DNA from: Bacteriovorax sp.
GTDB taxonomy: Bacteria; Bdellovibrionota; Bacteriovoracia; Bacteriovoracales; Bacteriovoracaceae
Reading direction: 5' to 3'
Assembly (NCBI GenBank): GCA_014377485.1
Contig: JACMPM010000002.1
Location: 1-64,000 of the forward strand
Length of the DNA: 64,000 bases
The translations under genes were made by a program, and so were the position numbers. This document shows positions 17,195 to 23,686 of the stretch, piece by piece (the stretch's first letter is position 1; each line of letters starts with the position of its first letter). Under the pieces are notes generated by a model. The model made no database searches. It was not told the origin of the DNA and worked only from the letters and a program-made list of their open reading frames with translations.

Positions 17195-18388
17195 TTAATT
17201 ATTCCCATCTTTTGGAAGAATTGCAAAAGTTTTATCAGCACGATTGAAAAGGAGAACTTTTTGCTCGTTTAAAGAGTACTTTCCTCCCCCCACACTCAAT
17301 CTATCCAGGATTTTCTCTACACTGCCTTCTGCTCTGATAATGAGAGTAGATCCCTCGGTAGAGTAAGACTTCATCTGCGAGGTCAATTTAAGGTCTTTAA
17401 ACTTTTCTTGAAGGAGTGAATTAATTTGATAAATTTCGGTTAAACCGGCCTTTGAAAGTATTTTTATTTCAAGTTCGGTCTGTTCTATGGTTTTTGCATT
17501 AGATTCTACAACGCTATTTATTTTAGCTGATTGTGAAAGCAGAAGATTATAAACTAAACTGGCCAGTGATGAACTCAACGCCTTTTTGTTTTTAATATCG
17601 AAATCGCGTTTCTGTACCGGAAAATCAAACGCCAACAAGGTTGACCCTGATTTTGCATTCTGTAGTATGTAATGAGCAGATAGTTCATAACTTGCAGTGT
17701 AATTTTCTGTGTTGCTTGAAACTTTCTTAAAAGTAGAAGTCCATTTAAGAATGACTGATTTTGTATTCATATAATCAGGTTTAGAACTTAAATCTTTTTC
17801 CAAAATAAGAACGCTTTCAAATCCTTTAATTTCTTTCTCTATTAATTTTTTCCATGAATCGAGAATGACGCCTCTGAAAGACTCGGGCTTCATGACTCCC
17901 ACATCATCCCAAGTCATATTGTCATCCAGATCAATATTGGCTTCAAGATAAAAAGTTTTCAATTTGGTAGCGGCCAAATCAGTTGTGACTTCGAGAAAGG
18001 TCATTTTTAATTTTTCAGGATTGAGTAGGGCCTTAAAATTCCCAGAGAGGTTTCTACCTTCAGGTTTCGGTTCTTTTGGGTCTAGTGAAGCTGCAACTGA
18101 AATCGATACATTTTCAAAAAGACTTTGCAGAAAAGCAGCTTCTTCTTTAGAAGACATTTTCTTTTGATCTAGTTTACTCCAGAATAATTCTGAATTTAAT
18201 TTTAAGTCTTCGAGCTCACTAGTAACTGCCTGACGATAACCATTAAGGGTCAGCAATTGTTCTTCATTCATCTCTGCCGTAACTTCACTTGGTTTAGCCA
18301 GTACATCAATTGAAATATCTTTGGCAAATGAGAAATTAAAACTAAGGTTCATTAAAATCATAAATAAAAAGAAAGCATATTTAAACAT
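17195..18388 (-). CDS. Secreted protein of unknown function
   Basis: A 397-residue exported protein with a signal peptide ending NFSFAKD. The frame opens with a TTG at 18400, but the ATG at 18388 has AAGGTG just upstream and starts directly at the signal peptide, so I prefer it. Either way it overlaps the end of dnaE. The mature part is Ser/Lys-rich, with a helical N-terminal half. Its C-terminal domain (ILSKAGLTEIYQINSLLQEK, TLIIRAEGSVEKILDRLSVG) alternates strands and helices as in periplasmic secretin-type or FlgT-type modules, but I cannot name a family. The lipoprotein gene follows, and the two may act together in the envelope. Confidence 0.7.
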   Translation of the reverse strand: MFKYAFFLFMILMNLSFNFSFAKDISIDVLAKPSEVTAEMNEEQLLTLNGYRQAVTSELEDLKLNSELFWSKLDQKKMSSKEEAAFLQSLFENVSISVAASLDPKEPKPEGRNLSGNFKALLNPEKLKMTFLEVTTDLAATKLKTFYLEANIDLDDNMTWDDVGVMKPESFRGVILDSWKKLIEKEIKGFESVLILEKDLSSKPDYMNTKSVILKWTSTFKKVSSNTENYTASYELSAHYILQNAKSGSTLLAFDFPVQKRDFDIKNKKALSSSLASLVYNLLLSQSAKINSVVESNAKTIEQTELEIKILSKAGLTEIYQINSLLQEKFKDLKLTSQMKSYSTEGSTLIIRAEGSVEKILDRLSVGGGKYSLNEQKVLLFNRADKTFAILPKDGNN

Positions 18389-21300
18389 GAACACCTTCAA
18401 TTTTTCCGTCTTCTAATCGACCGTCAATAATAAATTTAACGGCATCTTTATTGAAGACTTCATTTATCTGATGGGCCATTTGCGGAGTTGGATTAATAAG
18501 ATACTGCTCACCTAATGGAAGTCTTGCGCGCCCTTCACTTGATTCAAAAATCATATGCATTGGAGTTGATCCTCTGTATGAAAGTAGAACCTGGCGAAGT
18601 TTATTGAGTTTTATCTCAGTTAAATCTTCAAGACTCACGCTTATCCGAACACCTGTGATTTTATTTTCAGCATGCACTTTCAAAAGATGAATCTTTTCAG
18701 CAAATATTTTTCTCGGGCTCTCTTGAAGATTAACATAACCTTCAACCAGAACCGGTTCATCACTATTTAAAATGGCTTCAAACTCTGCAAATACTTTTGG
18801 AAAAACTATACACTCAATTTTCCCAGTCAGGTCTTCCAGAGTAGCAAAAGACATTTTATCCCCTTTCTTGGTAAGGATAACTTTTTTAGCCGTAAATTTT
18901 CCGGCCAAGGTCATATTGCGTTTTTGATCTGAACCTAAAAAATCTTGAACGTGCGCCACCGGCATAGTTGCCATTTCTTTCATAAGGCTTGCGTAGCGAT
19001 CAAGTGGATGCCCAGAAATATAAATTCCCATCAACTCTGCTTCGTGACCCAGGCGTTCGATATCATCAAATTCCGGGACTTCCTGGATATCTAGATTGGC
19101 TTCAGCCGTCTGGTTGAAACTAGCTCCATTTTCAGAAGACATATCAAACAGAGACACTAAACCTAGAGATGTTTCTTCCTGACGTTTTTTACAATAAGCT
19201 AAAATCATATCGAGATTTTCAATTAAAGTTTTACGGTTGAGTTTTTCACACTCATCAAAAGCCCCTACCTTAATCAACGATTCAATCACGCGGGTATTGA
19301 TAATTTTTAAATTAACCCGCTCACAGAAGTTAACAAATCCCGTGTAGTGACCATTTTTAACTCGTTCGCGAACGATTTCTTCGACAGCATTGGCCCCTAC
19401 GTTTTTAACAGCCCCTATACCAAAACGGATGTTTTTTTCAACAACGTTAAACGGCCATAGAGATTCATTAATCGACGGTGGCATAACATCAATATCAAAA
19501 TGTTTTGCATCCCCAATATACTGGGTAATTTTATCCATGTTACCGAGTTCAGAACTGAGTAGAGCAGCAAAAAATGCAGCAGGATAATAGTATTTTAAGA
19601 AAGCAGTTTGAAAAGAAATAACAGAGTAAGCAACGGCGTGTGATTTATTGAAACCGTATTCCGCAAATTTTTCCATCTTATCAAAAAGATCGTTGGCCAC
19701 AACAGTATCGTAATTGCGCTCTTTAGCTCCGGCCAAAAACAACTCTCGGTGTTTTGCCATCTCGTCAGCTTTTTTCTTTCCCATCGCACGACGAAGCATA
19801 TCTGCTTGTCCGAGAGAGTAACCTGCAACTATTCGAGCAACGTTCATTACTTGCTCTTGATAAATAATGACACCATAAGTATCTTTTAAAACAGCTTCAA
19901 GCGAAGCAAACGGGTAATGAGTGAGTTTTCTTCCGTGCTTAATTTCAATAAACTCATCGACCATTCCCGACTCAAGTGGACCCGGGCGATAAAGTGCATT
20001 GATGGCAGAAATATCGTCGATTGATCCAGGTGCAATTCTTTTACAGAGATCGATCATCCCTGAGGACTCGAGCTGGAAGACTCCAACTGTTTCGCCTTTT
20101 GAAATAAAGTCGTAAACGTTTTGGTCTTCAAGATCAATATTCTCAATATCAAAATCGGGAACCTTGTCGCGTTTAATAAAGTTAGTGGCATTTTCAATTA
20201 CGGTTAATGTTTTTAATCCTAAGAAGTCGAATTTAACCAGTCCGATTTTTTCTGAAAAATCTTTATCGAATTGAATGACTTTTTCACCCATGCGACCTTT
20301 GAATAAGGGGCAGTAATTCACCAACGGCTGGTTGGTAATGATAACACCTGCAGCGTGAATCGAAGCATGGCGCAGCAGCCCTTCAAGACGGCGGGAAATA
20401 TTGACGACTTGTTTTATGCGAGAGTCACTCTCCATCAGTTCAGTAAGTTTTGGTTCAAGTTCTAATGCTTTTTCCAAAGTCATTTTTAATTCATCTGGAA
20501 TTAATTTTGAGAGAACATCGGCCTCACTAAAAGTTAAACCAAAAACCCGCGAGACATCTTTAATAACTGCTTTAGCCTGAAGTTTACCAAAAGTAATAAT
20601 TTGTCCAACTCGCTCTTCACCATATTTCTTAGTTACGTATTCAATAACTTTATAGCGGTTCTCCTGACAAAAATCGACGTCAAAATCGGGCATAGAGACG
20701 CGTTCAGGATTGATAAAGCGCTCAAAAAGTAGATTGAATGGAATTGGATCGACGTTGGTTATTTCCAAGGAGTAGGCAACAATAGAACCAGCTCCTGAAC
20801 CACGCCCTGGACCTACTGGACAACCATTGCTCTTAGCCCATTTTATGAAGTCCGATACGATGAGGAAGTAACCAGGAAATCCCATCTTCACAATCATTGC
20901 AAGTTCGTCTTCTAATCTCTCTAAGTATTTTGGCTTTACTTCGGTTTCCCAATTTTCTTGTAAGCGCAATTTTGCAAAGTGTGGTCCGCCAAAACGCCAC
21001 TCAATTCCTTCGCGTGATTTTCTTCTAAAATAATCCGGTGCCGTTTCATCAGTTTCAATCGGGTAATCCGGAAGGTGATAAACTTGATTCCCGTGTTCAT
21101 CTTTCCAATTGAATTCAACATTACATTTATCAGCGATTTTAAGAGTGTTATCACACGCCTGTGGAGCGTAATGAAAAGACTCACGCATCTCAGTTGGCGA
21201 TTTGTAAAAAAATTCATTGGTAGTCAAACGCATGCGGTTTTCATCTGCGAGCGTTTTACCGGTTTGAACACATAGCAGAACTTCTTGAGCAGCTGCATCT

Positions 21301-21995
21301 TCTCTTGTTAAGTAATGGCAGTCGTTAGTTGCAACAATTTGCACGTCACGAGTACTGGCGTATTTTAGAATTTTTTCATTAACAATTTTTTGTTCTGGAA
21401 TTCCATTTTCTTGAATCTCCAGGTAAAAATCTTCACCGAAAAGATCCTGAAGTTTTTCTATTGCTTTAATAGCTTTGTCATCTTGTTCAGTGAAAAAGTT
21501 GTATCCAACTTCCCCCTTCAGACATGCAGTAGTGCAAATCAACCCCTCTTTGAATTCACGAAGTAGTTCGTAGTCAGCTCGAGGTTTATAATAAAAACCT
21601 TCCATATAGGCGCGTGAGAGAAGTTTACATAAATTTTGATACCCAGTTTCGTTTTTACACAAAAGAATTAAGTGATGGATTTGGTGGCGCGACTCCATTT
21701 CATCTTGAGAGCCCACAACTTTTTGTTTTTTGAGTGCGCCTTTTTCAAAGCGAGATCCAGGAGTAAAATAAATTTCACTTCCAAGAATAGGTTTGATACC
21801 GGCAGCTTTACATTGAGTATAGAAGTCAATAGCACCAAACATATTCCCATGATCAGTTTGGGCAATGGCAGGAACGCCTAGTTCTTTTGCTCTTTTGATT
21901 AGATCTTTCAGCCTAATGGCCCCATCTAAAAGCGAGTACTGGGTATGTAAATGTAAATGAACAAAACTCTCTGGGTGTGTTTCAAGAAAGGACAT
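18381..21995 (-). CDS. dnaE: DNA polymerase III alpha subunit
   Basis: The 1204-residue replicative polymerase of the DnaE type begins with a PHP domain (HLHLHTQYSLLDGAIRL, AQTDHGNMFG) whose metal ligands look largely intact. The palm has GPGRGSGAGSIVAYSL and the catalytic PDFDVDFCQENR. Then come the fingers (RRAMGKKKADEMAKHRE), a helix-hairpin-helix region and an OB fold (MTLAGKFTAKKVILTKKGD). The internal clamp-binding site is SLGLVSLFD, where many homologues have Gln at the Leu before VSLF. Length is normal for DnaE1 (about 1160-1200). It heads a minus-strand operon and is divergent from the gene at 22153. Confidence 0.97.
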   Translation of the reverse strand: MSFLETHPESFVHLHLHTQYSLLDGAIRLKDLIKRAKELGVPAIAQTDHGNMFGAIDFYTQCKAAGIKPILGSEIYFTPGSRFEKGALKKQKVVGSQDEMESRHQIHHLILLCKNETGYQNLCKLLSRAYMEGFYYKPRADYELLREFKEGLICTTACLKGEVGYNFFTEQDDKAIKAIEKLQDLFGEDFYLEIQENGIPEQKIVNEKILKYASTRDVQIVATNDCHYLTREDAAAQEVLLCVQTGKTLADENRMRLTTNEFFYKSPTEMRESFHYAPQACDNTLKIADKCNVEFNWKDEHGNQVYHLPDYPIETDETAPDYFRRKSREGIEWRFGGPHFAKLRLQENWETEVKPKYLERLEDELAMIVKMGFPGYFLIVSDFIKWAKSNGCPVGPGRGSGAGSIVAYSLEITNVDPIPFNLLFERFINPERVSMPDFDVDFCQENRYKVIEYVTKKYGEERVGQIITFGKLQAKAVIKDVSRVFGLTFSEADVLSKLIPDELKMTLEKALELEPKLTELMESDSRIKQVVNISRRLEGLLRHASIHAAGVIITNQPLVNYCPLFKGRMGEKVIQFDKDFSEKIGLVKFDFLGLKTLTVIENATNFIKRDKVPDFDIENIDLEDQNVYDFISKGETVGVFQLESSGMIDLCKRIAPGSIDDISAINALYRPGPLESGMVDEFIEIKHGRKLTHYPFASLEAVLKDTYGVIIYQEQVMNVARIVAGYSLGQADMLRRAMGKKKADEMAKHRELFLAGAKERNYDTVVANDLFDKMEKFAEYGFNKSHAVAYSVISFQTAFLKYYYPAAFFAALLSSELGNMDKITQYIGDAKHFDIDVMPPSINESLWPFNVVEKNIRFGIGAVKNVGANAVEEIVRERVKNGHYTGFVNFCERVNLKIINTRVIESLIKVGAFDECEKLNRKTLIENLDMILAYCKKRQEETSLGLVSLFDMSSENGASFNQTAEANLDIQEVPEFDDIERLGHEAELMGIYISGHPLDRYASLMKEMATMPVAHVQDFLGSDQKRNMTLAGKFTAKKVILTKKGDKMSFATLEDLTGKIECIVFPKVFAEFEAILNSDEPVLVEGYVNLQESPRKIFAEKIHLLKVHAENKITGVRISVSLEDLTEIKLNKLRQVLLSYRGSTPMHMIFESSEGRARLPLGEQYLINPTPQMAHQINEVFNKDAVKFIIDGRLEDGKIEGVHV

Positions 21996-22786: not shown

Positions 22787-23686
22787 ATGAAAGGATCAAA
22801 AAAAAATAAAAATTTAGGTCAGCTTTCTTTTGATATGATGATTCCAAAAGAAACTGACCGCAACTTCCACCTTGGTGGAAGATCATTTTATTTTTTTGAC
22901 TTCGATGACAATGTCGCTTTTTTATCAACTCCAATTATCATCTTCAATAAAAAGTCAGGTGCCGAAGTTGCACTTTCAAGCGGTGAATTTGCACATGAAA
23001 ATAAGAACATTGGTCTCTCTGGTCTCTATGCAGATTTCTACATGGATTTCAATGATGCCCATGGATCTTTTAGACATTTTAGAGATAAAGAATTTAATCC
23101 TCTAGAAATCAGAGAAGGAAAAAAACAAGGCTTCGTCGAAGATATTTTAAAAGCACTTAAAGAAGTGGACACACACTGGAAAGCACCGTCTTGGGAATAT
23201 TTTTATCATGCCACCTACAACAATAGACCTGTTTCTCTTATTACGGCCAGAGGACATCATCCAACGACTATTATCGAAGGTGTGAATCAATTAGTGAAAG
23301 CCGGATATCTGCCCAACGCTCCAAACTATCATAGTATTTATCCAGTTTCGAATCCTGAAGTTAGAAAAGATTTGGGTGATATTGATTTCAAGCAAAGTGT
23401 TGCTGAATTAAAAAAACACGCCATAAGAGCAAGTGTTGAAAAAGCGATTGAACTTTATGGTTACTCTCCATTCCATCGCTTTGGAATGAGCGATGACGAT
23501 CATAAAAATGTAGAGCTTATCACTGAAGAAATGAGAGATTTAAAAAGAAAATATCCAGAGATGAGTTTTTTCGTGATCGAGACTTTTAAAGATTCATTTT
23601 CTAAACGAGAAGTTTTAATGCATGAAACTAGAGAAGTCATTTCTGCAAAAGAGTCTACTAAACCGCAATTGAGTCTTTTTGATTAA
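22787..23686 (+). CDS. HAD-like protein with sliding-clamp-binding motif
   Basis: The 299-residue protein shows three HAD-superfamily landmarks: FFDFDDNVAFLSTP (nucleophile loop DxD, about residues 34-40), SLITARGHHP (motif II, Thr) and FGMSDDDHKN (motif IV acidic residues). A phosphatase or related phosphotransferase is likely; the substrate is unknown. It ends in QLSLFD, a near-perfect bacterial beta-clamp-binding peptide (QL[S/D]LF), free at the C terminus. A related GQLSFD occurs at residues 11-16. With dnaE divergent upstream, a role at the replication fork or in DNA repair is a reasonable inference. The stop lies in a TTAA shared with the convergent SGNH gene. Confidence 0.7.
   Translation: MKGSKKNKNLGQLSFDMMIPKETDRNFHLGGRSFYFFDFDDNVAFLSTPIIIFNKKSGAEVALSSGEFAHENKNIGLSGLYADFYMDFNDAHGSFRHFRDKEFNPLEIREGKKQGFVEDILKALKEVDTHWKAPSWEYFYHATYNNRPVSLITARGHHPTTIIEGVNQLVKAGYLPNAPNYHSIYPVSNPEVRKDLGDIDFKQSVAELKKHAIRASVEKAIELYGYSPFHRFGMSDDDHKNVELITEEMRDLKRKYPEMSFFVIETFKDSFSKREVLMHETREVISAKESTKPQLSLFD

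Follow-up and report, generated by a model that had tools for sequence, protein, structure and literature searches.

A locus in a Bacteriovorax sp. genome raises the question of whether a HAD-like protein belongs among the clients of the bacterial sliding clamp. Such clients determine events at the fork, and they have been cataloged mainly in E. coli and Bacillus. The window analyzed here is a 64,000-nucleotide stretch (contig JACMPM010000002.1, positions 1 to 64,000), and the gene in question is present in one copy in its own 3.95-Mb genome. Its features are given in Table 1. The evidence set out below suggests that the product is probably a soluble HAD-fold phosphohydrolase that acts as a client of the clamp, DnaN, through two clamp-binding motifs.

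Table 1. Features of the HAD locus, with positions numbered from the first nucleotide of the window
Feature	Position	Strand	Remark
CDS, clamp-motif HAD protein, 299 aa	22787..23686	+	ORF; ATG at 22787, stop at 23684-23686
N-terminal clamp-binding-type hexapeptide QLSFDM, residues 12-17	22820..22837	+	Family form QLEL[GDPE][IFL]; Gln in 77/77
HAD motif I, D38-F-D40-D41-N42	22898..22912	+	Nucleophile D38, acid/base D40; end of strand 33-37 (model)
HAD motif II, I152-T153-A-R-G-H157	23240..23257	+	Invariant, n = 77; end of strand 148-153 (model)
HAD motif III, K209	23411..23413	+	Invariant, n = 77; start of helix 205-224 (model)
HAD motif IV, G233-M-S-D-D237-D-x-x-N241	23483..23509	+	End of strand 231-236 (model)
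C-terminal clamp-binding pentapeptide QLSLF, residues 294-298	23666..23680	+	Canonical consensus; Q294 95%
Upstream ORF, 208 aa	22153..22779	+	One N-terminal hydrophobic helix; stop codon 7 bases ahead of the HAD ATG
dnaE (DNA polymerase III alpha), divergent neighbor	18381..21995	-	ORF; conserved neighbor in 20/58 loci

Translation of the ORF shows that the final six residues are QLSLFD, as the first-pass annotation had claimed, and the QLSLF within them is a canonical match to the clamp-binding consensus; the pentameric Q-phi-x-[L/M]-[F/L] and hexameric Q-phi-x-[L/M]-x-[F/L] forms are both recognized as clamp-binding motifs in a 2024 review (PMC11139829). The same annotation took the C terminus to be freely exposed, which agrees with the structure model, where the final ten residues have a mean pLDDT of 54 and are disordered; the N terminus is also disordered (pLDDT <50 for residues 1 to 14). 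The second peptide that it had pointed out, QLSFD, is present at residues 12 to 16 and is a variant of a hexapeptide that is conserved in the family. The family forms QLELDI and QLELGI are close to LQLELDF, the commonest clamp peptide recovered by phage display (PMC11139829). The copy in the window is among the weaker variants and is suboptimal, with a Phe at position 4, which is reported as weaker, and an atypical Met at position 6.

Conservation of these peptides was assessed in an alignment of 77 nonredundant sequences from across the phylum, with 40 to 93% identity to the window protein. Both are kept phylum-wide, and the loss from close orthologues that had been named in advance as evidence against the idea is not seen. 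At the C terminus, Q294 is conserved in 95% of sequences, L297 in 91% (the remainder have Phe, position 4 being Leu or Phe in 77/77), and F298 in 78%, with variants including QLDLF, QMSLF, QLPLF, QISLF, and QLTLF; more degenerate forms are QVALI, QMTLL, and a small clade with ESLSLFD, HPLSLFD, or LQPSLFD. At the N terminus, Q12 is invariant. The residue after it is Leu in 82% and otherwise mostly aliphatic; the third position varies, although 62% have Glu; the fourth is Leu in 62% and Phe in 36%; the fifth varies again; and the sixth is Ile, Phe, Leu, or Met. The columns flanking both motifs are variable, mostly <40% conserved, and the termini are otherwise barely alignable.

This pattern greatly exceeds chance expectation. 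The tail pentapeptide Q[LMIVA].[LFM][FLI] occurs in 65 of the 77 sequences compared with a mean of 1.5 and a maximum of 7 in 2000 shuffles, and the head hexapeptide Q[LMIV].[LFM].[LIFMV] in 68 of 77 (shuffle mean 0.8, maximum 4, also in 2000 shuffles). A strict canonical definition finds 17 heads and 58 tails (last 25 aa) among the 77 relatives, the heads being few because N-terminal position 4 or 6 is often Phe, Ile, or Met; a somewhat wider pattern finds 71 heads, 69 tails, and 63 sequences with both. Among 412 neighboring ORFs used as a control, the canonical motif is present in 4 heads (first 40 aa) and 2 tails (last 25 aa), and at both ends of none. The conservation and the shuffles together rule out QLSLFD as a chance C terminus, and the alignment supports purifying selection on both terminal motifs across the phylum.

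The DnaN encoded by the same genome keeps the pocket residues L155, T172, G174, R176, L177, V247, M362, and P363 (E. coli numbering) and differs from the E. coli pocket at P242 (Leu) and S346 (Pro), with most positions identical or conservatively replaced. A UmuC/DinB-like protein of this genome carries QFSLF, and together with the mostly retained pocket this indicates that the standard clamp-motif grammar is in use. It is very improbable that the terminal Q-L-x-L-F peptides are instead not clamp ligands and serve in self-docking, in binding another partner, or as a degradation tag: although they are linked to DnaN by sequence evidence only, and N-terminal positions 4 and 6 are often Phe, Ile, or Met in place of the canonical Leu/Phe, the pentameric and hexameric grammars are matched at two independent places, the DnaN pocket is conserved, and replication genes are neighbors. 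The HAD protein very likely binds DnaN through at least one of its motifs, and the chances that both are engaged on one clamp are about even.

The assignment as a HAD-like protein is supported by motifs I to IV, which are all present, are conserved in the 77 sequences, and succeed one another as expected along alternating strands of the structure model; the predicted strand order fits a HAD Rossmannoid fold. In motif I, D38, D40, and N42 are invariant, so that both Asp residues of the usual DxDx[T/V] are retained and Asn is at the T/V position; in motif IV, D237 and N241 are invariant and D236 and D238 are conserved in at least 90% of sequences. An insertion of about 105 residues (about 43 to 147) separates motifs I and II. 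Searches of Pfam, NCBIfam, PHROGs, and PDB sequences give only chance-level matches, and no family in these collections covers the protein. Foldseek comparison of two models with the PDB yields no match at E <0.03, only weak and mutually inconsistent ones in which a single HAD, Lem4 (6cgj), is at rank 50 and not significant; the core-only structure model is worse than the first. The basis for calling the protein a HAD is therefore the order of its motifs together with the secondary structure predicted for it. The invariance of all of the HAD catalytic residues argues against a purely structural role, and the protein is likely to be catalytically active.

If so, the likeliest substrate is a phosphate on DNA ends or on nucleotides that arise or remain at the fork. 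The first-pass annotation had suggested that the protein could clean 3'-phosphates or process nucleotides there; the first of these, a clamp-tethered DNA 3'-phosphatase that restores a 3'-OH at blocked ends, is plausible, but we regard it as somewhat unlikely. In a viral structure library, most of the highest-ranking matches are phage proteins without a name; further down, but still among the better matches, are a phage PNKP phosphatase-domain protein (prob 0.89, E 0.03) and, with prob 0.69, a Swiss-Army-Knife (SAK) RNA-repair HAD. For jumbo phages, HADs of the PNK and SAK families have been described as phosphatases that act on nucleic-acid ends (PMC7824862). These structural matches are weak, however, and the family lies outside the PNKP and SAK Pfam families, neither model being among the best 25 of 35 weak families for the 77 members.

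Further evidence on the substrate comes from relatives that share the HAD core (DxDDN, ITARGH, K, and SDDDxxN), which are secreted paralogues and proteins of uncultured phages of 630 to 735 kb; both groups are without the two terminal motifs. The phage DWDDN homologues (25% identity) include two from uncultured phages of ∼640 kb (L123 and L124; LR756502 and LR745206), in each of which a UvsW-type helicase gene is a few kilobases or less away, a proximity in keeping with a role at DNA ends. The secreted paralogues have the same core and do not suggest a fork-specific substrate, which weighs against the 3'-phosphatase. ClpP-like genes are also within a few kilobases of both phage homologues. The paralogues with DxDDN (L067, L068, L071, and L074-L078) mostly have signal-peptide-like N termini and no clamp motifs. 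Two of the proteins, L072 and L077, have HDK and STGSLN-like segments in a region that precedes the HAD domain, a possible PLD-like fusion, for which L077 gives no Pfam match.

A tree built from the core only places 68 motif-bearing and 2 motif-less rows together, apart from the secreted and phage rows, with an SH-aLRT of 94, and requires few later changes of either motif, 4 for the N-terminal and 5 for the C-terminal one. The two motif-less rows inside the clade (L062 and L066, from genomes G225 and G201, respectively) lack both motifs together. Genome G225 is 1.3 Mb.

Nucleotidases are common among HADs, and the predatory phylum digests prey DNA. A clamp-tethered nucleotidase would work close to the polymerase on damaged nucleotides or nucleoside monophosphates, either cleaning the pool or recycling dNMPs from proofreading or from prey-DNA degradation, and the large insertion between motifs I and II resembles those of capped small-molecule HADs. 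An enzyme whose substrate diffuses freely would hardly need two clamp tethers, however, and the nucleotidase reading is quite unlikely. Also quite unlikely, and to a similar degree, is a protein phosphatase or a clamp-occupying regulator that competes for the clamp as Hda does, with catalysis directed at a replisome protein or dispensable; the N-terminal motif is placed as in Hda, on a disordered N terminus, and two motifs per chain could fill both clamp pockets, but the invariant catalytic residues speak against occupancy as the sole role. The 3'-phosphatase, the nucleotidase, and the protein phosphatase or regulator are all versions of the DnaN-client phosphohydrolase that differ in substrate, and their likelihoods overlap with that of the client itself.

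For the DnaN-client phosphohydrolase, the predicted mechanism is docking of the N-terminal hexapeptide, placed as in Hda, and of the C-terminal pentapeptide, placed as in Pol II and Pol IV, in the hydrophobic DnaN pocket, and the two could occupy both pockets of a single clamp dimer. Such tethering would keep the catalytic domain at freshly replicated or repaired DNA, where it would take off a phosphate. A clamp peptide on both floppy ends suggests that this is probably a phosphate-removing enzyme that travels with the replication machinery. The stronger proposal of a phylum-specific replisome component, with the HAD phosphatase straddling the clamp dimer, one motif in each pocket, and cleaning or signaling at the fork, is tentative, and its chances fall some way short of even; it would be a type of clamp client that has not been described from other bacteria.

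The genomic neighborhood varies between families. In the window, dnaE is two genes away on the opposite strand, with the short ORF in between, and in the Bacteriovoracaceae the HAD gene follows this conserved small ORF near dnaE, with guaA/guaB-type genes (identified from sequence) on its other side. Of 16 Bacteriovoracaceae loci with the small ORF, 15 have it immediately 5' of the HAD gene, in most cases 2 to 12 nt away; it matches no Pfam family and is a probable operon partner in this group. In other families the gene immediately upstream, in the same orientation, is topA, coding for DNA topoisomerase I (23/58 loci; no more than two genes away in 28/58), and the one immediately downstream encodes an S41 tail-specific protease in 32/58 loci. 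The placement beside dnaE noted at first is thus accurate for the Bacteriovoracaceae and is a trait of that one family; with topA there instead in most others, dnaE is ruled out as the defining context. Chance could account for topA and dnaE as operon partners. DnaE has a presumed internal clamp motif of its own, which is LGLVSLFD in the window and several close relatives and QGLISLFD in one. The corresponding sequence in other Bacteriovoracaceae is GQVSLF or GQSNLF, so that close relatives of the window have lost an otherwise usual Gln.

Relatives of the HAD protein are present in 179 of 369 genomes and 85 of 182 genera of the phylum (profile search, E ≤ 0.001), the weakest of these matches being the secreted paralogues. 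A scan of GTDB contigs finds 22 relatives, nearly all labeled Bacteriovorax, Halobacteriovorax, Bacteriovoracaceae, or Bdellovibrio-type and one labeled Deltaproteobacteria; no relative was found in scans of viral contigs or in plasmids. The gene is absent from genomes of the same family that are at least 99% complete (e.g., G020, G023, and G027), and it is therefore dispensable in some lineages. A conserved, unnamed family with two clamp motifs and intact catalytic residues suggests that replication across this phylum, whose members are mainly predatory, is coupled to an additional enzymatic step. A strain of B. bacteriovorus HD100 with DnaN-mNeonGreen exists (PMC6606864).

Clamp clients and HAD enzymes are each of already known kinds, but a HAD enzyme that has clamp motifs at both ends and is conserved across a phylum appears to be new, and no report of a clamp-binding HAD phosphatase was found in the open-access literature. 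Like the HAD superfamily phosphohydrolases, the window protein has motifs I to IV in the predicted alternating alpha/beta order, and it differs in its DxDDN motif I, with Asn where Thr or Val is usual, in matching no Pfam or NCBIfam model at cutoff, and in having no significant PDB fold match. It has a weak structural likeness to the PNKP and Swiss-Army-Knife phosphatases of the viral library, from which it is set apart by the lack of a sequence-family match, the large motif I-II insertion, and the clamp motifs; the secreted paralogues and phage HADs have its core but not its clamp motifs, and the former begin with signal-peptide-like N termini. Among known clamp clients, Hda carries its motif in a disordered N terminus and Pol II and Pol IV carry theirs in a C-terminal tail (PMC11139829), and the HAD protein resembles them in that its folded enzyme domain adjoins a disordered terminus that bears a short peptide of the form Q-phi-x-L-F or Q-phi-x-L-x-[F/L/I]. 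Unlike those clients, its catalytic domain is HAD-like rather than that of a polymerase, an AAA+ protein, or a mismatch-repair protein, and each chain has two motifs, one at each end.
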